Assembly: GCA_020346185.1 (NCBI GenBank)
Contig: CP070775.1
Coordinates: 2,056,988-2,101,019 of the forward strand
Source: Betaproteobacteria bacterium
Lineage (GTDB): Bacteria; Pseudomonadota; Gammaproteobacteria; Burkholderiales; Eutrophovitaceae
Reading direction: 5' to 3'
Length of the DNA stretch: 44,032 nucleotides
In this document: in pieces, positions 8,630 through 44,032 of the stretch
Numbering within the stretch: the first letter of the stretch is position 1
How the letters are laid out: every line of letters starts with the position of its first letter
Translations under genes and position numbers: made by a program
Notes under the pieces: generated by a model
Told to the model about the DNA's origin: nothing
Database searches by the model: none
Seen by the model: only the letters and a program-made list of their open reading frames with translations

Positions 8630-9526
8630 TCAGTCTTTTCGTCGAATCCCCTCCAACCGTACCCAGCCCTCCCGGGTGACAGCGGACAGCGCTTCAAACC
8701 AGGGTCGATAGAGGCTCCTCAATTCTTCCGCTTGCCATTCCAGTATCCCCGACAAGACCAAGCGACCCCCAATGCGAGTCAGCCCGGAGAGCAGAGGTGC
8801 TAACACTTTCAACGGACCGGAGAGAATGTTTGCAAGGACGACATCGGCAGCTCCAATATCACTCGCCTCAGTACCGACGAACCGCACTTGAACACCGTTT
8901 CGCTCCGCATTGTAGCGGCTCGTTTGCACTGCCTGCGCATCGATATCGACACCTGTGACAGTCAAGGCACCTAGTCTCGCGGCGGTAATCGCCAGAATGC
9001 CAGAGCCACAGCCATAATCGATGACACTCTGTCCGCGCTCAAGGTTGCGATCAAGCCAATCCATACACAGAAAGGTTGTCGGATGAGTGCCAGTACCAAA
9101 CGCCAATCCGGGATCCAACACTATGTTGACAGCATCCGGCTCGGGTGCGGCGTACCAACTTGGAACAACCCACAACCGTTGTGACACCGCGATGGGCTCG
9201 AACTGCCGTTGTGTCGTGCGGACCCAGTCTTGCTCCGCGACTGGATAGGTACGGTACGAGGGCACATTGGCCAGGCCAACGAAGCTTGCCGCTTCCTTGA
9301 CGGCACATTTAACATCGGCGCTTTCCTGGAACAGAGCGACTATCCGATTGTCTCCCCACGCTACGGTGACATCCTCGCCCGGTTCCATGTAAATCGCCTG
9401 CTCGTCTTCGCGACCGGAACGCGCATCGGCTATGTCCACCGAAATCGCGCCGAGCTCGAGCAACGCATCGGCGAACGGGTTCACGACCGGCGCCTCAAGC
9501 AACAACTCCGCGGCGACCCAAGGCAT
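8630..9526 (-). CDS. prmA: Ribosomal protein L11 methyltransferase
   Basis: A 298-residue class I SAM methyltransferase that trimethylates ribosomal protein L11. The SAM-binding motif DYGCGSGILAITAARLGA is clear, preceded by GLAFGTGTHPTT, and the catalytic-region motif NILSGPL is present. The start at 9526 gives MPWVAAELLL, matching the family N-terminus (E. coli 293 residues); the TTG at 9550 would add eight residues. The neighbours accC and the DUF3426 gene are the usual ones. Confidence 0.94.
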   Translation of the reverse strand: MPWVAAELLLEAPVVNPFADALLELGAISVDIADARSGREDEQAIYMEPGEDVTVAWGDNRIVALFQESADVKCAVKEAASFVGLANVPSYRTYPVAEQDWVRTTQRQFEPIAVSQRLWVVPSWYAAPEPDAVNIVLDPGLAFGTGTHPTTFLCMDWLDRNLERGQSVIDYGCGSGILAITAARLGALTVTGVDIDAQAVQTSRYNAERNGVQVRFVGTEASDIGAADVVLANILSGPLKVLAPLLSGLTRIGGRLVLSGILEWQAEELRSLYRPWFEALSAVTREGWVRLEGIRRKD

Positions 9527-9546
9527 CCTAGCCACACGCCTCGCGT

Positions 9547-10902
9547 TCAATCGGTCTTGCTCGATGCGGCGAGCTTCTTCTCCAGATAATGGATACTGAC
9601 ACCCCCTTCGGCAAATCCGCCGTCAACCATCAGATCCTGATGGAGTGCAATATTGGTTTGAATTCCCTCGATCACCATTTCGGAAAGCGCCACACGCATG
9701 CGTGCAACGGCCTGTTCACGCGTATCGCCGTAAGAGATGATCTTGGCGATCAACGAGTCGTAATGCGGCGGTACGAAGTAATTCTGATACACATGCGAGT
9801 CGACACGGATGCCTGGCCCGCCGGGCATATGCAATGTGGTGATTCGGCCCGGCGACGGAGTAAACTTGAATGGGTGCTCGGCATTAATCCGGCATTCGAT
9901 TGCGTGGCCCCGAAACGTGATGTTCTTTTGCCGAAAATTCAGCTTATCGCCAGCAGCGATCATGATTTGGTTCTTGACGATGTCGATACCGGTAATCAAT
10001 TCAGTAACCGGATGTTCCACCTGAACCCGCGTATTCATTTCGATGAAATAGAACTCGCCCTTCTCGTACAGAAATTCAAACGTGCCCGCTCCACGGTAGC
10101 TGATCTTCCGACATGCATCGGCGCATCGCTCGCCGATGCGCGCTCGATCCTTGGGCGCAATGAACGGCGCTGGCGCTTCCTCTATGACTTTTTGGTGTCG
10201 CCGCTGAAGGGAACAATCACGGTCTCCCAAGTACACCGCGTTGCGGTGTTCATCGGCCAGTACCTGGATCTCGACATGACGAGGGTGTTCGAGAAACTTT
10301 TCCATGTAGACCGTCGGATTGCCGAAAGCGCTGTGCGCTTCCGAGCGCGTCATTGTGACCGCATTGACCAATGCGGCTTCAGTATGCACGACGCGCATAC
10401 CGCGGCCACCGCCACCGCCAGCTGCCTTAATGATCACTGGGTAGCCGACCGTGCGAGCGATCCTGACAATTTCCTCGGAGTCCTCAGGCAGCGCGCCATC
10501 GCTACCCGGGACCACCGGAACACCAGCCTTGATCATCGTCTGTTTGGCGGTAACCTTGTCTCCCATCAGGCGAATGGTGTCAGCGCGGGGGCCGATGAAA
10601 ACAAAACCACTTTTCTCGACTTGTTCGGCGAAGTCGGCGTTCTAGGAAAGGAAGCCGTAACCAGGGTGGATTGCTTCAGCATCGGTCACTTCCGCTGCGC
10701 TGATGATGGCTGGTATGTTCAGATATGAGTCAGTGCTCGAGGCTGGTCCGATACAGACCGATTCGTCGGCGAGTCGCACGTACTTCGCATCCGCGTCGGC
10801 CTCCGAATGGACCGCAACAGTGCGAATCCCGAGCTCGCGGCAGGCCCGTTGCACGCGCAAAGCGATCTCGCCACGATTGGCTATCAGAATTTTTTCAAAC
10901 AT
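9547..10902 (-). pseudogene. accC: Biotin carboxylase subunit of acetyl-CoA carboxylase, interrupted by one in-frame TAG
   Basis: AccC carboxylates biotin on AccB, the first step of fatty acid synthesis. The frame from 10902 to 9547 is colinear with a normal ~450-residue AccC: ATP-grasp glycine loop [30 protein letters not shown]. It is interrupted at one codon only: 10644-10642 reads TAG where the family has GAG ([19 protein letters not shown]). The 25 codons after it are still conserved before the next Met. One base (plus-strand position 10644, A where C is expected) explains the break. The peptide before the stop is 86 residues and inactive by itself. Possible explanations are a sequencing or assembly error, a real recent mutation with suppression or a second copy elsewhere, or a C-terminal restart at ATG 10566 (ATP-grasp without the N-terminal domain). 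Confidence 0.9.
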
Positions 10903-10982: not shown

Positions 10983-11456
10983 TCAAGCGATCACGAACAG
11001 TGGCTGGCCATACTCGACCGGCTGGCCATTGTCGACGAGGATAGCCTTGATTGTTCCACTGGCCTCGGCTTCGATCTCGTTTAGCAGTTTCATTGCCTCG
11101 ATAATGCATAGCGTATCGCCGGCACTAACCGACTGCCCGACTTCAACAAAAGGGCTCGCTCCTGGTGATGAGGCCCGATAAAAAATGCCGACCATCGGGG
11201 ACTTTATGGTGTTGCCTTCGCTCTCTTCGGTCACTGCAGTATCGTCCGGGACGGGTGGCTTAGCTGCGGCAGCTGCCGACACAGCGCTGATCGTGGTAAC
11301 GGGAGCGGGCGCCGCCTGTACCGTAGGCAAAACCGCCTGATCAGCGGAACCGACCCGGTTGATTCTGACCTTCTCTTCGCCTTCACTGATTTCCAGTTCA
11401 GCAATGCCAGACTCTTGCACCAGGTCAATGAGTTTCTTCAGCTTTCGCAGATCCAT
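10983..11456 (-). CDS. accB: Biotin carboxyl carrier protein of acetyl-CoA carboxylase
   Basis: A 157-residue protein that carries biotin between AccC and the carboxyltransferase. The biotinyl lysine is K123 in [14 protein letters not shown]. An Ala/Pro-rich linker (about 41-80) joins the N-terminal AccC-binding segment to the C-terminal biotinyl domain. The ATG at 11456 is preceded by a GGGG-rich ribosome site. The gene start lies inside the last 32 bp of aroQ, and accC follows about 80 bp downstream. Unlike accC it is intact. Confidence 0.96.
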
Positions 11457-11958
11457 GGTCAACCCCTTTTTTTAGGTACTGGATTGCAAAATCCAGAGCC
11501 GCGTCGTAGCCACCTGAGCCGAACCCGCAAATCACGCCCACCGCTCTATCGCTGAAATACGAGTGTCGCCTGAAAGGTTCGCGTGCATGCACGTTGGACA
11601 GATGAATCTCTACGTATGGAATTTGCACTGCCGAGAGAGCGTCGCGCAGCGCCACGCTGGTATGCGTATATGCGGCCGGATTGATGATGATAAATTGAAC
11701 ACCTTCGTGCCGAGCCCGCTGAACCCGATCGACGAGATTACCCTCCGTGTTACTTTGAAAGATCGACAACTGCGCCCCGGCGCGCTTCGCGCTGCCAGAG
11801 ATGCGGCTGTTTATGTCGTCGAGTGTCTCCGAGCCGTAAATCTCTGGCTCACGCTGGCCCAGCAGGTTCAGATTTGGTCCGTGAATCACCAGAATGTTTG
11901 GGTGTGGCGCCTCGCGGGAGCCCGGAGTCAGCGTTGATGTAGATTGATCGGTCAGCAT
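11425..11958 (-). CDS. aroQ: 3-dehydroquinate dehydratase, type II
   Basis: A 177-residue shikimate-pathway enzyme converting 3-dehydroquinate to 3-dehydroshikimate. It has the type II motif [16 protein letters not shown], the NPAAYTHTS loop and [12 protein letters not shown]. It carries about 20 extra N-terminal residues (Ser/Thr-rich) before ILVIHGPN, since no later ATG is usable. The 3' end overlaps the accB start by about 32 bp, so the two are likely translationally linked. This aroQ-accB-accC order is common in gammaproteobacteria. Confidence 0.95.
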
Positions 11959-27497: not shown

Positions 27498-27647
27498 GCG
27501 CGAATCGCTCATCCAACGGTTGCTGATTGGTAGACGGACTGATACATTCGCCATCCGCAAAACCCCTCCGGAGCGCAGTACAGTGCGTTCATGCGCTGAA
27601 TCCGCATCGCTCGCCCGTCCGGGTGCAACGTGGGAGAACCAACGGAA

Positions 27648-29021
27648 ATGCGTACATTGTTTCGTGTTTTGCGGCCGCTGAGAACGGGTCTGGTTGCCAT
27701 CGCAATGCTTTTCGCAGGCGTGATCCTCGTTGGCGCGCCGGCGCACGCGTCTGACAAGTCGATTCGTATCGGCCTGGTCACTTTCCTTTCCGGCCCTGAA
27801 GCTGACCCATTCGGTGTCCCAGCGAGAATCGCCGCGGAAGCGATCGTTGAATCGCTCAATGCCGGAACGGCTCCGGCTCCGTACGGCTCGATTGGAATGT
27901 CCGGCGTGCCCATCGAATTGGTCATCGTCGACGAAGCGGGCGGCGCAACCAAACAGGTCGCGGAATTTCGTAACCTAGTCGAGCGGCAAAAGGTCGATTT
28001 CGTGATCGGTTATATCTCGAGCAGTGACTGTCTCGCCATCCCCCCAGTCGCCGAAGAACTGAAGAAACTCACCGTTCTTTTCGACTGCGGCACGCCGCGT
28101 GTGTTCGAGGATGCATCCTACAAGTACGTTTTTCGCACGCGCCCGCATGCCACAATGGATGCCGTTGCGGGGGCGCGTTACCTGCTTGAGGCCCGTTCTG
28201 AACTGAACTCTTATGCCGGCATGAACCAGAACTATGCCTGGGGTCAGGACTCATGGAATGACTGGAAAGCGGTGATGGAAGTTCTGCGCCCGAAGGCAAA
28301 ATTCACCACCTCGCAGATGCCCAAATTCGGCGCCGGCCAGTACAGTGCAGAGATTTCGGCGCTCATGCAAAGTCGCCCCGAAGTCATTCATTCAAGCCTG
28401 TGGGGCAGCGATCTCGAGGCATTCATGCTGCAGTCGACGCCGCGCGGCCTTTTCAAGCGCAGTGCTCTGTTATTGATTGCCGGGGAGCCGAATCTGCATC
28501 GTCTAGTGGGAAATATTCCGGATGGCACCATTGTTGGCGCCCGGGGACCACATGGAGTGTTTGCGCCAAACAGCGAATTGAATGACTGGCTGCGCCGTAT
28601 CTATAAGGCCAAGACTAGCCGCGAGCCGAATTACCCTGCGTACAGTGCTGCCCAGGCATTTCTCGGCCTGAAAGCGGCTTACGAGCGAGCGCGCCTCGAG
28701 AAAGTCAAAAGCGCCATACCGATGGGAGCGGCAAGGGGTGTCAAGGAAGGCATGGAGGAGGCCTATCGGATGCCAAACACCGAAGAGGTTATTGCCGCAT
28801 TCGAACATCTCACCTTTGCATCGCCCAGTGGCAAGGTCATGATGCGACTCGGTAAAGGCCATCAGGCCGTGCAGGGAACGGCCTACGGAACAACGCGCAC
28901 CGTTAATGGCAAAGTCATCATTGAAAACATCAAGTACTATCCGGTCGAGGAAGTTCAGCCACCGGAGGATGTCAGGAGCATTGACTGGATAAAAGGCGGT
29001 TTGAAACCGGGAAGATGGTGA
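27648..29021 (+). CDS. Branched-chain amino acid / amide-type ABC transporter substrate-binding protein
   Basis: A 457-residue periplasmic binding protein (Peripla_BP_6 / LivJ type). It has a long signal peptide (basic MRTLFRVLRPLRTG, hydrophobic core, cleavage near AHA-SD, residue 34), then IRIGLVTFLSGPEA and a two-lobed domain including DFVIGYISSSDCLAI and FRTRPHATMDAVAGARYL. The start at 27648 follows a GGGAG site; the open frame 18 bp further up is not needed. The gene is intact, while the permease and ATPase genes behind it are broken, so it may be an orphan receptor or be on its way out. The ligand cannot be told from sequence. Confidence 0.88.
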   Translation: MRTLFRVLRPLRTGLVAIAMLFAGVILVGAPAHASDKSIRIGLVTFLSGPEADPFGVPARIAAEAIVESLNAGTAPAPYGSIGMSGVPIELVIVDEAGGATKQVAEFRNLVERQKVDFVIGYISSSDCLAIPPVAEELKKLTVLFDCGTPRVFEDASYKYVFRTRPHATMDAVAGARYLLEARSELNSYAGMNQNYAWGQDSWNDWKAVMEVLRPKAKFTTSQMPKFGAGQYSAEISALMQSRPEVIHSSLWGSDLEAFMLQSTPRGLFKRSALLLIAGEPNLHRLVGNIPDGTIVGARGPHGVFAPNSELNDWLRRIYKAKTSREPNYPAYSAAQAFLGLKAAYERARLEKVKSAIPMGAARGVKEGMEEAYRMPNTEEVIAAFEHLTFASPSGKVMMRLGKGHQAVQGTAYGTTRTVNGKVIIENIKYYPVEEVQPPEDVRSIDWIKGGLKPGRW

Positions 29022-29085
29022 TCGAACCCAGATCAGCATGCAGTGCGCTGCGCTCGCCGTATAGCGTGCAAGAGTAGCGTTATCG

Positions 29086-29790
29086 ATGGCACAACTGGTC
29101 GCCGTCCTGGTCGACGGGGTGATTTACTCATGTTGGCTGTTCATCATGACCATCGGCCTGACGCTGATCTATGCAGTAATGAAGATTCTCAACATCGCGC
29201 ACCGCAGGGTGTTAGCTCTAGCTGCCTATAAGGCCGCATCGCTGGCCGGCCACTGGTTCGAACCGGGCGATCTGCCAATGGGTACCTGTGCGATCATGTT
29301 GCTGGCCATCTCATTTGCGATTGGCGGTTTGCTGGCCTGGACGTTGTGAGACGAACGCGCTACGGCAAAATCCTCATTGCAGTCATTCACGACCGGGAGA
29401 TGGCCGGGTCACAGGGCGTTAATGTCAGTCTGGTTTACTTTGTCGCGTTCACAGTTGGTGCCACGCTCGGCGCTGTCGGGGATTCGTTGACGGCACCGAT
29501 GGGTTCATTGCAGCCAGGTATTGGCGCCGAGATGATTGTGCTGGCGTTCGCGGTGGTCGTCATCGGCAGTCTCGGCAACTTACCGGGGGCAGCCCGCGCC
29601 GCCATGCTAGCCGACATTGTGCGCGCCGCAGCGATTCATTTCCGCTTTCGAAAGCATAGGCAGCATCGCTTATGAGCATTCACCTGATACCTGGCAGATG
29701 GCACTCGGCATCACCATGCTGATGGTGGTTATGCTCCCGCCCGGTGGACTCTGGTCGCTGTTTACACACGTTATCCGGAGGGTAGCGTGA
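29086..29790 (+). pseudogene. Remnants of the LivH/LivM permease genes of the same transporter
   Basis: Two blocks of a LivH-type permease lie in different frames. 29086-29349 begins with a LivH N-terminus (MTIGLTLIYAVMKILNIAH) and stops. 29346-29675 carries the C-terminal part (RRTRYGKILIAVIHDREMAG, GIGAEMIVLAFAVVVIGSLG). About 100 codons of the middle are missing between them. The conserved AHG is damaged (AHRR). From about 29658, in a third frame, comes a LivM-like tail (YEHSPDTWQMALGIT... GGLW) ending at 29790, so most of livM has been deleted. A working permease cannot be made from this. Confidence 0.85.
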
Positions 29791-30436
29791 GCGTCGTTGT
29801 CGAGGCGAAGAAGTCCGTACAAGAGTTTCAGCGCCGTCACCGCCGCTGGCGGCGTCAGCGTCGAGTCAGATGCGGTGGTCGGCCTGATCGGTCGCGACGG
29901 TGCGGGCAAAACAACGTTGATGTGTAGCGTCATGGGCTTGCTTGCTCCAAGCGCTGGTTCGGTCGAGTTCTCTGGAACAGCGCTCGCCAGGACGCCAACG
30001 CATGCTCGTGCCCGCAATGGCATCGGCCACATGCCCCAAGACCGGCGACTGTTACCAGATCTGACTGTAGAGCAGAGTGTCTTAATTCCAGCCTGGTCGG
30101 TCGGAATCAAAGACGCCACCGCGAGGCTGGGCCTTTACGTTGATCCCCGAGGTCCGCGAGTTTGCCTACCGCAAGGCCTTGCTGTTATCCGGCAGGCAGC
30201 AGAATCTGGTGGCTCTGGCTCCCGCTCTCATGTGCGGTATCAAGCTACTGCTGCGCAACGAGCCGTTAGACGGTGTCGGACCAGTACTGGCAGCTCGACT
30301 GGCAGAAGTGATTGGTGGCCTAGGTGAGGAGGGGGCTGCCATCATACGGCCTGAATCGGGCCAGACCCATTCGCGTGAATTGCTCTATCGCATCCACACC
30401 GCGGATCGTGACGACGTCAGTCTGGCGCGGGAATGA
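29787..30436 (+). pseudogene. Decayed LivF-type ATPase gene of the same transporter
   Basis: A GTG at 29787 follows a good GGAGG site and overlaps the livM remnant stop. The coding potential then changes frame near 29820: the ATPase continues in the frame giving VVGLIGRDGAGKTTLM (Walker A intact). It changes frame again near 30135, continuing with EVREFAYRKALLLSG. Key elements are eroded: the signature reads LSGRQQN instead of LSGGQQK, and Walker B reads LLLRNEP instead of LLLLDEP. A separate livG is absent. This is a pseudogene by both frameshifts and motif loss. Confidence 0.85.
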
Positions 30437-30525
30437 CTCTTGTTTGGCTTGACGGGCAGCTTAAACACAACATGCTGGGCGCGAAGTGATGCCGCCGATC
30501 TTGAATAGGCTCTGGGACGAATTTT

Positions 30526-31029
30526 ATGAAAATTGAGACTCGCTGGATTCATGCGGGCGTATTCGTGGCATGCGTCGGACTCATTGCATACGCAATGGTG
30601 CTGCAGCACTTCATGGACCTCGAACCTTGCCCGATGTGTATTCTGCAGCGCTACGCATTCGTCGGTGTCGGCCTTCTCGCGTTGCTGGCTGCCATTCACG
30701 ATCGGCGTGCATGGGGGCGGTGGGTCTACTCCGGGCTGATAATACTGGTATCCAGCCTTGGTGCCGGTGTGGCCGCCCGCCATTCCTGGCTGGAACACAA
30801 CCCGCCGCCGGTATATGACTGCGGCGCTGACCTAGGATTCGTGATTGACACGTTCCCGTTGGCAGAGGCGCTGCCTATGATTTTCCGAGGCACCGGCGAC
30901 TGCACAGAAGTACTGTGGCGTTTCCTCGGCTTGTCTATCGCCGAGTGGGCACTGATTTGGTTCCTGATTTTTGTTGTTGTCGAAGTATTTCTCGCGACGC
31001 GAAGAGAGCCCGAGTCAAAATCGACTTAA
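30526..31029 (+). CDS. dsbB: Disulfide bond formation protein DsbB
   Basis: A 167-residue inner-membrane quinone reductase that reoxidises DsbA. It has four transmembrane helices and two periplasmic loops with the working cysteines: C35/C38 in EPCPMCILQR, and C99 and C126 in the second loop. Length is normal (E. coli 176). Its stop is 12 bp from the convergent kinase gene stop. No dsbA is in the window; the reductive partner dsbD is present only as its alpha domain at 12681-13145. Confidence 0.95.
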   Translation: MKIETRWIHAGVFVACVGLIAYAMVLQHFMDLEPCPMCILQRYAFVGVGLLALLAAIHDRRAWGRWVYSGLIILVSSLGAGVAARHSWLEHNPPPVYDCGADLGFVIDTFPLAEALPMIFRGTGDCTEVLWRFLGLSIAEWALIWFLIFVVVEVFLATRREPESKST

Positions 31030-34063: not shown

Positions 34064-34954
34064 TTATCCAGTGCCCACAGTACCCGTCAACCAGCGTCCG
34101 CCACTGACCCGCAATACGCCTGCCAAGTCGCGCTCTGAAACGATATCAGCCAGACCGGCCCGGCTCAGCATATGCCGAACCGCTTCGGCCTGGTCGTAGC
34201 CGTGTTCACAAAGCAGCCAACCTCCCGCGGCCAGATGGCGCGGCGCCACGCTCGTGATTCGCTCCAGGGCATCCAGTCCCTTGGGACCGCCGAGGAGGGC
34301 ATGCCTCGGCTCGAAGCGAATATCCCCTTGTTTGAGATGGTTATCGTCCTCAGCTACATATGGCGGGTTAGAGACGATCATCTCGAATGTCGTTCCCGCG
34401 AGTGCATCAAACCAGTCGCTGTGCAGCAGCTTTAGCCGCTCGCCATTTCCCAGTAAGCGCGCACAGTTAAACCTGGCCACCCTCAGGCAGGCCGCCGATG
34501 CATCAACTGCCGTTAGCATTACATGGGGCCGCTCAAGGGCGATTGCAATCGCAATCGCCCCGCTGCCGGTGCCAAGATCGAGCACCCTGACAGGCGCATC
34601 GGGCCGGATGCGCTCGAGCGCCATGTCGACCAATAGCTCGGTCTCCGGTCGCGGTATTAATACGTCAGGCGTGACCGCGAAAACATGTCCGTAGAACTCA
34701 CGCTCGGAAAGAATGTATGCGATCGGCTCTCCGGCAAGGCGCCGCTCCAATGATCGCAGGTAGATTTCGTTCGTTGCTGCCTGGGCAGCCAGTTCAGGTC
34801 GCGCAATCAGGCTGGCACGCGTCACTTGCAGGGCGCGAATCAACAACAGCTCGACTTCATTGCGCGCCTCGCGATTGGACAGCCCAAGGGCATCGCGCAG
34901 GCGTATCGCATCGTGCATCAGCGCTGTACCCGGTGGCGCCACCGTTGCACTCAC
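34064..34954 (-). CDS. prmC: Release factor glutamine methyltransferase
   Basis: A SAM-dependent enzyme that methylates the glutamine of the GGQ motif in release factors. It has [16 protein letters not shown] for SAM binding and NPPY (196-199), the active-site motif that binds the target glutamine; [11 protein letters not shown] is also conserved. The GTG start at 34954 overlaps the prfA stop (GTGA); Met13 (34918) is an alternative. Its substrate RF1 is encoded directly upstream. Confidence 0.96.
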
Positions 34955-36042
34955 AACGGCGCTGCTTCCTGTGATAGCGCAGCGAGCTGCTCGGTTTGAT
35001 GTTCTGTAGACAAAGCGTCGATCAACTCATCGAGATCGCCTTCCATGACCTGCGGCAGCTTGTACAGCGTCAGATTGATGCGGTGATCACTGACCCGGCC
35101 CTGCGGGAAGTTGTACGTACGAATTCGCTCAGACCGGTCACCGCTGCCTATCATCGTCTTTCTGCTAGCCGCTTCCTGAGCCTGTCGCTCTCGAATCTGG
35201 CGGTCCTTGATACGCGCGGCAAGTATAGACAATGCCTGCGCCTTGTTCTTGTGTTGCGATCGATCGTCCTGGCACTCGACAACGATGCCGCTCGGCAAGT
35301 GCGTAACGCGCACCGCTGAGTCGGTTTTGTTGACGTGCTGACCGCCAGCCCCCGACGCACGAAACGTATCGATGCGCAGGTCCGCGGGATTGAGCTCGAC
35401 ATCCTCGACGGCGTCTGCTTCCGGCATGATTGCCACCGTACAGGCGCTGGTATGAATTCGCCCTTGCGCTTCGGTCTCCGGCACCCGTTGCACACGGTGG
35501 CCACCGGATTCGAACTTCAGCTTCGAATAGGCGCCACTGCCGGTGATTTTGGCGATGATTTCCTTGTATCCGCCGAGTTCCGATGGGCTCTGCGATACGA
35601 GGTCAACTGCCCATCGCTGTCGTTCAGCGAAGCGGCTGTACATTCTGAACAGGTCACCGACAAACAAAGCTGACTCGTCACCACCGGTACCCGCGCGGAT
35701 CTCCAGGAAGATGTTCTTCTCGTCGTTCGGATCCTTCGGTAACAAATGCATCTGTAACTGCGCTTCCAGCTCGTGCATCTTCTCACGGCTGGCTGCAACC
35801 TCCGCTTCGGCCAATTCCTTCATTTCCGGATCGTTGGCCAATTCAAGCGCCGACTCAACGTCGCGCTCACATTCGAGATAGGTTTGATAAAGCTCGACGA
35901 TCGGGGTGATTTCGGCGTGCTCTTTGGCGAGCTGACGAAAACTGTCCATGTCACGTGCGGCGTATTCGGAACTTAGCAGCGCGTTAAGTTCCTCGAGCCT
36001 GGCGGCAAGCTGCGCTAGCTTGGACCCGATCGACGGTTTCAT
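34951..36042 (-). CDS. prfA: Peptide chain release factor 1
   Basis: A 363-residue factor that terminates translation at UAA and UAG. It has the catalytic GGQ (233-235) and the stop-codon recognition PxT motif, here P-E-T (188-190; P-A-T in E. coli). Length and domains are normal, so UAG should be read as stop in this organism. This matters for the TAG codons in accC and the BCCT gene. It overlaps hemA upstream (ATGA) and prmC downstream. Confidence 0.97.
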
Positions 36043-37912: not shown

Positions 37913-39400
37913 ATGTGGAAAAATCTGACCATGATAGTGGGTGTCGCAATGACACTCTCGGTCGCACTATGGGGTTTGATCGACACGCATGGGCTTGGCG
38001 TCTTTGCCAGGCGCTACGCAGAGATTGCATTTCTGACGCGGGGGTGGTTCATCATGGTATTGATGACGGCAATCCTGTTCATTGTGGCGTTTCTGATGCT
38101 GTCCGGTTACGGAAAACTCAGACTGGGGCGCGATGACGAGAAACCGGAATTTTCCAACGTCACGTGGATCACCATGATGTTTGCGGCGGGCATGGGTGTG
38201 GGGCTGTTGTATTGGAGTGCAGCGGAGCCGCTTACGCACTTCGCTGTGGCGAGCGACTACGCGCCAGAAGCGACCGCCGCAAGGCAAGCGTTGTTTATTA
38301 CCAATTTTCACTGGGGTGTGCATGCGTGGGCGATGTTTGGCCTCACTGGCCTGGTGATCGCCTATTTCTCTTTCTGCCGTGGCGCGCCGCAACTGCTCAG
38401 TAGCCCGCTGACGGTGACGTTCGGCAACAAAATGTGGACCCGTTGACCGGGCAACCTTGTGAATGTGCTGGCCATCTATGCGGTGGCCATCGGTGTCGCC
38501 GGCACCATTGGCATGGGCGTGTTCTAGATCCAGAACGGCATCAACGTCATGCGCGGCGGCGAGTCATCGGGAATGGGTCTGACGACCGCCTTGTTCGTGC
38601 TGTTGTGTATCGGCTTCCTGATGCCGCTGACCGTCAACGTGGAAAAAGGTATGGGGCGGATATCGAACATCGCTTTCGGAATCGCGCTGTTTCTGGTGCT
38701 GTTCGTCTTGCTGTCTGGGCCCACGTACTACATCATGAGCGTCCTGGTGGATGCGTTCGGCGCCTATCTGGGTGGCGTAATTCATCAGGGCTTCAGAACC
38801 TACGCCCTGGCCGACGAGAACCTGCGCAGCTGGTTTGAAGACTGGACCCTGACCTATATGGTTTGGTGGATCTCGTGGGCGCCTTTTGTCGGGGTGTTCA
38901 TTGCGCGAATTTCTCGCGAACGAACGATCCGGGAGTACCTACTGGCAGTGACGTTGCTGCCCGCCTTGTTCTCAATATTCTGGTACGGCGTTTTCGGCGG
39001 TATTGCGTTCTATGAAACGCTGGAAGGCAAACGAAACCTGTTAGAGGCGGTTACAGGCAACATCGACAGCGTTACTTTCGTGCTACTCGACAAGTTACCG
39101 CTCTCGCCGCTGACGCAGACTGCAGTGGTCGTGTCCGGGTTTCTTTTCATTATCACGAGCGTGGTGAGCGCATCTCTGGTGCTCGCCATGTTCACCGAAC
39201 GGGGCAACCCGGACCCAAGCGTGCGTAATAAGCTGGTGTGGGGTTTGATCGTTGCCGCACTGGGTTTGACCATGATTCTGGCCGGTGATATCGAGGTAGT
39301 ACGGCGCATTATCGTGATGGCTGCCTTGCCGTTTGTGTTAATCCTGCCGCTTCTGTTTGTCAGTTTGCTGAAGGCCCTGAGGAGCGAGAAAACAGAATGA
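37913..39400 (+). pseudogene. BCCT-family (betaine/choline/carnitine) transporter gene with two in-frame stop codons
   Basis: The frame encodes a 495-codon BCCT transporter: WSAAEPLTHF, NFHWGVHAWAMFG in the first part, and WWISWAPFVGVFIARISRERTIREYL with LLPALFSIFWYGVFGG in the second. These symporters import betaine, choline or related osmolytes. Codon 178 is TGA (38444-38446) and codon 205 is TAG (38525-38527). Both lie in the same frame, and the sequence between and after remains BCCT-like, including TIGMGVF-stop-IQNGI where the family has Q. No frameshift or deletion is seen, so the lesions are recent, or are sequencing errors. A short coupled gene follows. As it stands only a 177-residue fragment would be made. 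Confidence 0.88.
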
Positions 39401-42451: not shown

Positions 42452-44032
42452 CTATTCTGTTGAAAAACGCCGGAACCGCGAAGCGTTGAGCAAGTCTGAA
42501 GAGCTGACTCGGTAATCGGAGACTGTCAGCATGATGGGTCGGCAGGGTAGCAATCAAGCGCCGCTGTTTTATTCCTTCAGTCTCGAAGATCACGTTCCCG
42601 CCGATCATCTGCTTCGAGGCATCGACCACTTCCTCGATCTCAATGAGCTGCACCAGCACCTCGCGCCCCACTACAGCAACACCGGGCGCCCATCGATCGA
42701 TCCGGCGCTGATGATACGCATGCTCGTCATCGGCTACTGCTTTGGTATTCGTTCCGAGCGGCGACTTTGCGAAGAAGTGCACCTGAACCTGGCCTATCGC
42801 TGGTTTTGCCGACTGGGACTAGAGGACAAGATCCCGGATCACTCGACGTTCTCTAAGAATCGTCACGGGCGCTTTCGGCACAGCGACACCTTTCGCCACG
42901 TCTTCGAGACTGTGCTGCGTCGATGCATGACTGAGGGTCTGGTCGGTGGCGAAGGATTCGCCATCGATGCCAGTGTGATCAGAGCGGATGCGAACCGTGC
43001 GCGCGGCGTGCCTGGCGGTGAAGCGGCGCAGTGGAAAAGCCACCAGAATAGTTCACGCGCCGTGCGCGAGTATGTCGATGCCCTGGAGCTCGCCAACCCG
43101 CCCGAAGTCCCACCGAAATCGGTGTCGCTGACCGACCCGGGCGCACGCTACACCGCCGCACCCGGTGGCCCGGCCTTCTACGCCTACTCCACCAACTATT
43201 TGGTCGATGTCGACGCTGGCATCGTTGTCGATGTCGAAGCCACACCCGCGTTGCGCACCGATGAGGTCAATGCCACGCGGACCATGATCGAGCGCGTAGA
43301 GCAGCGCTTCGAGATGAAGCCGGGCAGACTGATCGGCGACATGGCCTACGGTGCGGCAGCGTTACTGGGCTGGATGGTCGACGATAAAGCGATCGAACCA
43401 CATGTACCTGTGTGGGACAAAACGCAACGCAAAGACGAAACCCTGTCCAGTACCGACTTCCATTGGGACGAACAAGCCGGCGAATACCGCTGCCCGCAGG
43501 GCCATGCGTTGCGCAGCCAATGGCGCACATTGAAGAACCTGCGGTCCCACATCACCAAGGCCGGCACGATCATCTATCGGTCCAGCCAAGCAGATTGCGC
43601 GAGTTGCCCGATGAAGGCTCGCTGCTGTCCAAACACAGCGATTCGCAAGATCACGCGCAGCGTGCATGAATCTGCGCGCGAAGTCGCTCGCACCATCGCC
43701 AAGACCGCGGCTTACAGGCAATCGCGCAAAGACCGAAAGAAAGTGGAGATATTGTTCGCGCACCTCAAGCGGATCATGAAACTGGATCGATTGCGATTGC
43801 GCGGGCTCAGTGGTGCCAATGACGAGTTCCTGATGGCAGCCACCGTGCAAAACCTCAGACGAATGGCGAAGTGGCTCGCACCCGATACACAAAATGGCGG
43901 ATTATTGCCCGCATAGGAGCAAACAAGGCGGTGAGACTCAACAAAAACAGTCGCAATACCGATCGAATTTCGTTACAGCTTTGCAGTAACCGCAACCTTC
44001 CATTCCAAAAGCCGAGTTTTTCAACAGAATAG
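42452..44032. mobile_element. IS1182-type insertion sequence with 17-bp perfect terminal inverted repeats
   Basis: The left end CTATTCTGTTGAAAAAC at 42452-42468 is repeated in inverted form at 44016-44032, giving an element of about 1.58 kb with one transposase gene between. The right repeat stops at the last base of the window, so the target duplication cannot be checked and the true end could be a little further. The window edge falling at an IS end suggests a contig or repeat-boundary break. Confidence 0.9.
42531..43916 (+). CDS. IS1182-family transposase
   Basis: A 461-residue DDE transposase, full length. The N-terminal DUF772-type domain shows SLEDHVPADHLLRGID, and IGYCFGIRSERRLCEEV and DHSTFSKNRHGRF follow. 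The likely catalytic acids are D in GFAIDASVIRADAN, D in LIGDMAYGAA and E in KKVEILFAHLKRI. A Cys-rich patch (CASCPMKARCCP) precedes the last segment, as is usual for this group. No frameshift is seen, so it is potentially active. It starts 79 bp inside the left inverted repeat. Confidence 0.94.
   Translation: MMGRQGSNQAPLFYSFSLEDHVPADHLLRGIDHFLDLNELHQHLAPHYSNTGRPSIDPALMIRMLVIGYCFGIRSERRLCEEVHLNLAYRWFCRLGLEDKIPDHSTFSKNRHGRFRHSDTFRHVFETVLRRCMTEGLVGGEGFAIDASVIRADANRARGVPGGEAAQWKSHQNSSRAVREYVDALELANPPEVPPKSVSLTDPGARYTAAPGGPAFYAYSTNYLVDVDAGIVVDVEATPALRTDEVNATRTMIERVEQRFEMKPGRLIGDMAYGAAALLGWMVDDKAIEPHVPVWDKTQRKDETLSSTDFHWDEQAGEYRCPQGHALRSQWRTLKNLRSHITKAGTIIYRSSQADCASCPMKARCCPNTAIRKITRSVHESAREVARTIAKTAAYRQSRKDRKKVEILFAHLKRIMKLDRLRLRGLSGANDEFLMAATVQNLRRMAKWLAPDTQNGGLLPA

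Follow-up and report, generated by a model that had tools for sequence, protein, structure and literature searches.

The accC gene is essential in model bacteria. In E. coli, rpoS is dispensable, and its amber allele is suppressed by supE. The amber alleles of rpoS, namely a TAG in codon 33 of some K-12 strains and the E200 amber in ECOR32, are the nearest published parallels that we found (PMC2700278, PMC3074542) to an interrupted accC gene analyzed in this study. Both cases represent a single amber codon in an otherwise intact conserved gene; however, the rpoS alleles were found by sequencing cultured strains, whereas the accC TAG is known from the assembly. A literature search at listing level, covering premature stops and pseudogenes of accC, amber codons in essential genes, and interrupted genes in metagenome assemblies, found nothing on an accC TAG. 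Compared with the AccC proteins of Pseudomonadota (TIGR00514/NF006367; PDB 1bnc, 2c00), the product of this gene is similar in its full-length match when read through, in the accB-accC gene order and in all invariant columns but one, and differs from them by one TAG at codon 87.

The window (the whole stretch of DNA analyzed, 44,032 nucleotides) contains the following features relevant to this gene:

9547..10902, minus strand: accC, encoding the biotin carboxylase subunit of acetyl-CoA carboxylase; 451 codons, one of them an internal TAG; both halves colinear with NF006367/TIGR00514
10642..10644, minus strand: in-frame TAG, accC codon 87, in GYGFLS(stop)NADF by translation; Glu in aligned relatives
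9547..10566, minus strand: longest open reading frame after the stop, from an ATG that is residue 113, 339 codons, lacking the first 112 residues
10983..11462, minus strand: accB (BCCP), intact, TIGR00531 187 bits (cut-off 115)
11425..11958, minus strand: aroQ, intact, above the TIGR01088 cut-off
8630..9550, minus strand: prmA, intact, above the TIGR00406 cut-off
34951..36042, minus strand: prfA, release factor 1 (RF1), which reads TAG as stop, intact, TIGR00019 538 bits, no stops

Read through the TAG, accC scores 776.6 bits in the profile search against an NF006367 cut-off of 597, and also 735.6 bits against a cut-off of 626.5. It thus exceeds the curated cut-off for AccC, with a frame that is interrupted at codon 87. 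Residues 1-86 align to positions 1-86 of the AccC profiles, and the part from M113 onward aligns to positions 113-448. Codon 87 encodes Glu in all 128 relatives with an aligned residue (70 GAA, 58 GAG); 130 loci were supplied for this count, 129 were matched, and one match was too short to include codon 87. The comparison does not include two genomes of the same genus, G001, where the accC match is cut off after 41 residues by the end of a contig, and G002, where no AccC-class match was found. In a third genome of the genus, G003, accC is open and 94.9% identical to the copy in the window. No internal stop was observed in 57 AccC-class matches of other genomes (bits >690; 56 genomes, one of them represented twice). 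Similarly, an order-wide AccC search revealed no stop among the matches listed, which are the best-scoring part, from 385 of 399 genomes, with the genome under study outside this part. A TAG common to relatives was therefore not found in the compared genomes. The original prediction of a colinear accC frame with a lone TAG at a conserved Glu is thus confirmed by translation, by the profiles and by the 128 Glu codons, and accB, aroQ, and prmA, which it had described as intact, are all open and above their family cut-offs.

On the phylogenetic tree of AccC, this copy groups with those of G003, G005, seven more genomes of the same family and a single genome from a different family, this group lying among betaproteobacteria; G006, G008, and G010 from the same family are placed elsewhere. 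The first 25 kb of the window are in the same order as in G003, mostly at 80-85% nucleotide identity (72% in one 431-base segment), and the protein matches remain in order up to about 37.3 kb. The region of approximately 37.4-44 kb has no matches in the compared stretches of G003, and a transposase gene (42531-43916, plus strand) is located near its end. The G+C content of the window, 0.57, is inside the range of the genome samples (0.557-0.586). Given this content and the collinearity with G003, an origin of the window from a foreign contig is unlikely.

Selective constraint was estimated from 33 gene pairs, which we chose from the stretch collinear with G003. The selection omits the broken liv genes, several small open reading frames and the FHA gene that lies at the edge of the window, and for gcvPA it covers 276 of 459 residues. 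The dN/dS ratio of accC, 0.034, is the lowest in this set (range 0.034-0.251), and the other 32 pairs contain no internal stop within their aligned parts. Among 124 accC columns that are invariant in 127 relatives, 123 are retained, the sole departure being the stop itself. Changes private to the genome at invariant columns are likewise absent from prmA (28 columns), accB (23), and aroQ (27); for prfA, one relative only was used in this test. The amino acid changes in accC that could be polarised are equal in number on both branches, seven on the branch of the studied genome (all downstream of the stop) and seven on that of G003. No direction could be assigned to the remaining differences. In particular, codons 88-112 differ from those of G003 at six third positions and by no amino acid, and this stretch must therefore have been translated until recently.

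An old pseudogene is ruled out by the dN/dS ratio of 0.034 and the retained invariant columns. Neither relaxed selection nor several lesions, the usual marks of a pseudogene, are observed in accC, where the lesion is single. In the absence of decay in the rest of the gene, the stop, if real, must be very recent, and a rough estimate from the sequence comparison would place it in about the last 5% of the branch.

We also compared samples of the genome (524,032 bases) with those of G003 (1,120,000 bases) in a scan for interrupted genes, which disregards the first 5% and the last 3% of every query. Of the 136 places matched from G003 to the genome under study, the scan flagged 11 because of a stop, a frame change or incomplete cover, and with the direction of the comparison exchanged it flagged 9 of 131. 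Among 103 matches of at least 200 amino acids (38,157 codons at most), a lone in-frame stop in a fully covered match was flagged in accC only. The four other flagged places of this length are two liv pieces, the FHA gene located at the edge of the window, and a 249-amino-acid match. The latter has a TAA and is one of two flagged partial matches in the same sample (L164), both without a Pfam match. The FHA gene and a flagged nitrile hydratase beta part are both only partly covered. The flagged stops of accB and the FolB gene are a TAA situated just upstream of the accB start and a TGA ahead of the FolB domain. Finally, two flagged matches are overlapped by longer open reading frames in other frames, and one of them, a 130-amino-acid match without a Pfam match, overlapped by frames of 261 and 302 codons, is the only flagged place besides accC with a lone TAG. 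A codon-score scan for internal stops flagged seven other places and not accC, and was dropped.

A random single-base substitution produces a stop in about 3.5% of cases. At error rates of 1e-5, 1e-4 and 2e-4 per base, the nonsense errors expected in 38,157 codons thus number 0.04, 0.4 and 0.8, respectively, and one would be expected at about 2.5e-4. One nonsense error is therefore plausible in a low-depth consensus and improbable in a well-covered one.

The genome is represented by one contig of 3.6 Mb (3,608,018 bases, 90.07% complete). A 400-kb sample of it contains 33 gaps of exactly 100 N each. Two such gaps flank the window, which coincides exactly with one gap-free piece. The genome appears to be a draft in which pieces were joined end to end, and the assembly is probably metagenome-derived. 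In one sample of this genome (L151), each piece is steadily shorter than the one before it, from 2,978 down to 2,740 bases; gaps of 100 N are also observed in the G003 samples (for instance, in L206).

The most likely reading, which we hold with fair assurance, is that this draft, metagenome-type assembly has a wrong base at the TAG, or that its consensus captured a minority or dead-end allele there. This reading is the best supported one since accC is the most constrained of the 33 genes and the genome looks like a gap-joined draft. The basis for a wrong base also includes the single stop in a gene otherwise under full constraint, the lack of a backup AccC above the cut-off and of any sign of recoding. 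The living population would then make a normal full-length AccC from the accB-accC pair, and sequencing reads would presumably not support the stop as the population state. On the other hand, the window is otherwise of good accuracy, as seen from the 32 stop-free gene pairs and the unchanged invariant columns of prmA, accB, and aroQ, and the error rate may thus be too low for a wrong base; furthermore, other genes of the same window look truly broken. From the list of explanations given in the original prediction, a wrong base, here extended to an unrepresentative allele, is the one that gained support, whereas a suppressor, a restart or a second AccC did not. As it stands, the TAG is mainly a warning that a lone stop in a draft genome should be supported by reads before a biological story is built on it.

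The broken genes encode two transporters. The remains of liv, an ABC transporter for branched-chain amino acids (permease and ATPase genes, 29022-30530, plus strand), have frameshifts and missing parts, whereas their counterparts in G003 (L197) are open; the liv binding-protein gene (27630-29021) is still open in the window. Similarly, a gene of the BCCT transporter family (37913-39400, plus strand) is interrupted in frame by a TGA at 38444 and a TAG at 38525, and is likely a pseudogene. Decay is thus likely present elsewhere in the window. These lesions suggest that gene loss in this lineage is real, and they keep alive, at low probability, the explanation that the accC stop is a genuine nonsense allele of very recent origin, carried by a lineage that is either at the onset of losing its de novo fatty acid synthesis or capable of lipid uptake. 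We consider this explanation unlikely. The decayed genes encode transporters and have at least two lesions each or missing parts, whereas accC has one lesion under the strongest constraint, and both accA and accB are intact in this genome. Moreover, by a rough estimate, a neutrally evolving downstream part would hold far more than seven changes unless the stop arose within approximately the last 5% of the branch.

If the stop is real, the gene would represent a natural amber allele in an essential gene, and thus a clean case for either suppression or loss of fatty acid synthesis. Read-through of the codon, with an amber suppressor tRNA or leaky termination yielding enough full-length AccC, would be consistent with the full constraint on both sides of the stop. 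In a specific form of this explanation, a wild lineage of the Burkholderiales type carries a genuine amber in its sole accC, and low-level suppression, by a tRNA encoded in the unassembled part or by a leaky UAG followed by A, would provide the essential enzyme at a reduced, termination-limited level. The listing for this genome contains 30 tRNA genes, so that their number is at least 30, and none of them is for Glu, His or Ile(GAT); a suppressor gene could be located in the same missing part. However, no CUA anticodon is observed in the 30 listed tRNAs, a list that is incomplete, and ARAGORN detected no tRNA beyond them in 608,408 of the 3,608,018 bases. A search with a CTA-anticodon pattern, which with an open anticodon would recover 28 of the 30 known tRNAs, gave 13 hits in comparison with 19 for the reversed control, and ARAGORN identified none of the 13 as a tRNA. 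The tRNA with a CUA anticodon proposed in the original prediction was thus not found in this incomplete set. A pattern for Glu-type tRNA had one hit (L271), the same number as the control, and ARAGORN sees no tRNA there.

In addition, RF1 is intact, and TAG terminates 31 of the 128 genes of this genome with a visible stop, all of which a strong suppressor would extend, and 18 of the 25 G003 counterparts that could be checked also end in TAG. The only other flagged place with a lone TAG is the overlapped 130-amino-acid match mentioned above. Read-through in its general form is therefore quite improbable, and the specific scenario of a wild lineage is more doubtful still. A genetic code with TAG reassigned was rejected, since RF1 is intact and TAG is an ordinary, common terminator.

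The last explanation retains a real stop and assigns the AccC function to a product restarted at ATG 10566, or to another biotin carboxylase of the genome. The frame of 339 codons from this ATG is the longest one after the stop, and the genome encodes two more long proteins that contain biotin carboxylase domains. However, the restart product would lack 112 conserved residues and aligns from residue 113 of the solved chains of 1bnc and 2c00; the first domain of AccC ends near residue 103. Codons 88-112, which a restart at M113 would leave untranslated, show the same degree of constraint as the remainder of accC, and the restart suggested in the original prediction is disfavored for both reasons. 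No GGAG-like ribosome site is found just upstream of ATG 10566; it is likewise absent before the accC start, and its absence is thus a weak argument.

The profile search identified accC as the only AccC above the family cut-off in this genome, and the second AccC that had been proposed was not found in the assembly; the two other biotin carboxylases are below the AccC cut-offs. One of them, a protein of 669 amino acids, is encoded next to an HMG-CoA lyase gene (above cut-off) and a crotonase-type open reading frame (below cut-offs), as in branched acyl-CoA breakdown; from these neighbors, we infer that it is an alpha subunit of 3-methylcrotonyl- or geranyl-CoA carboxylase. The other one has a carboxyltransferase-like part and adjoins a CoA-transferase-type open reading frame. 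Both look like catabolic or fused enzymes, with neighbors that suggest other pathways, and similar-sized frames are found in genomes of the same family with an open accC, for example, G003 and G014. Rescue of AccC function by a restart or by one of these enzymes is accordingly the least probable explanation considered here.

The frame with the carboxyltransferase-like part (L003, G000:C1:1189106 onward) is open over 1143 codons. Among the genomes of the same genus, G001 contains a gene with a biotin carboxylase domain that has a TAG and an apparent frame change (L173, G001:C33:3282-4636), and another such gene that is split across two matches (L174, contig C45).
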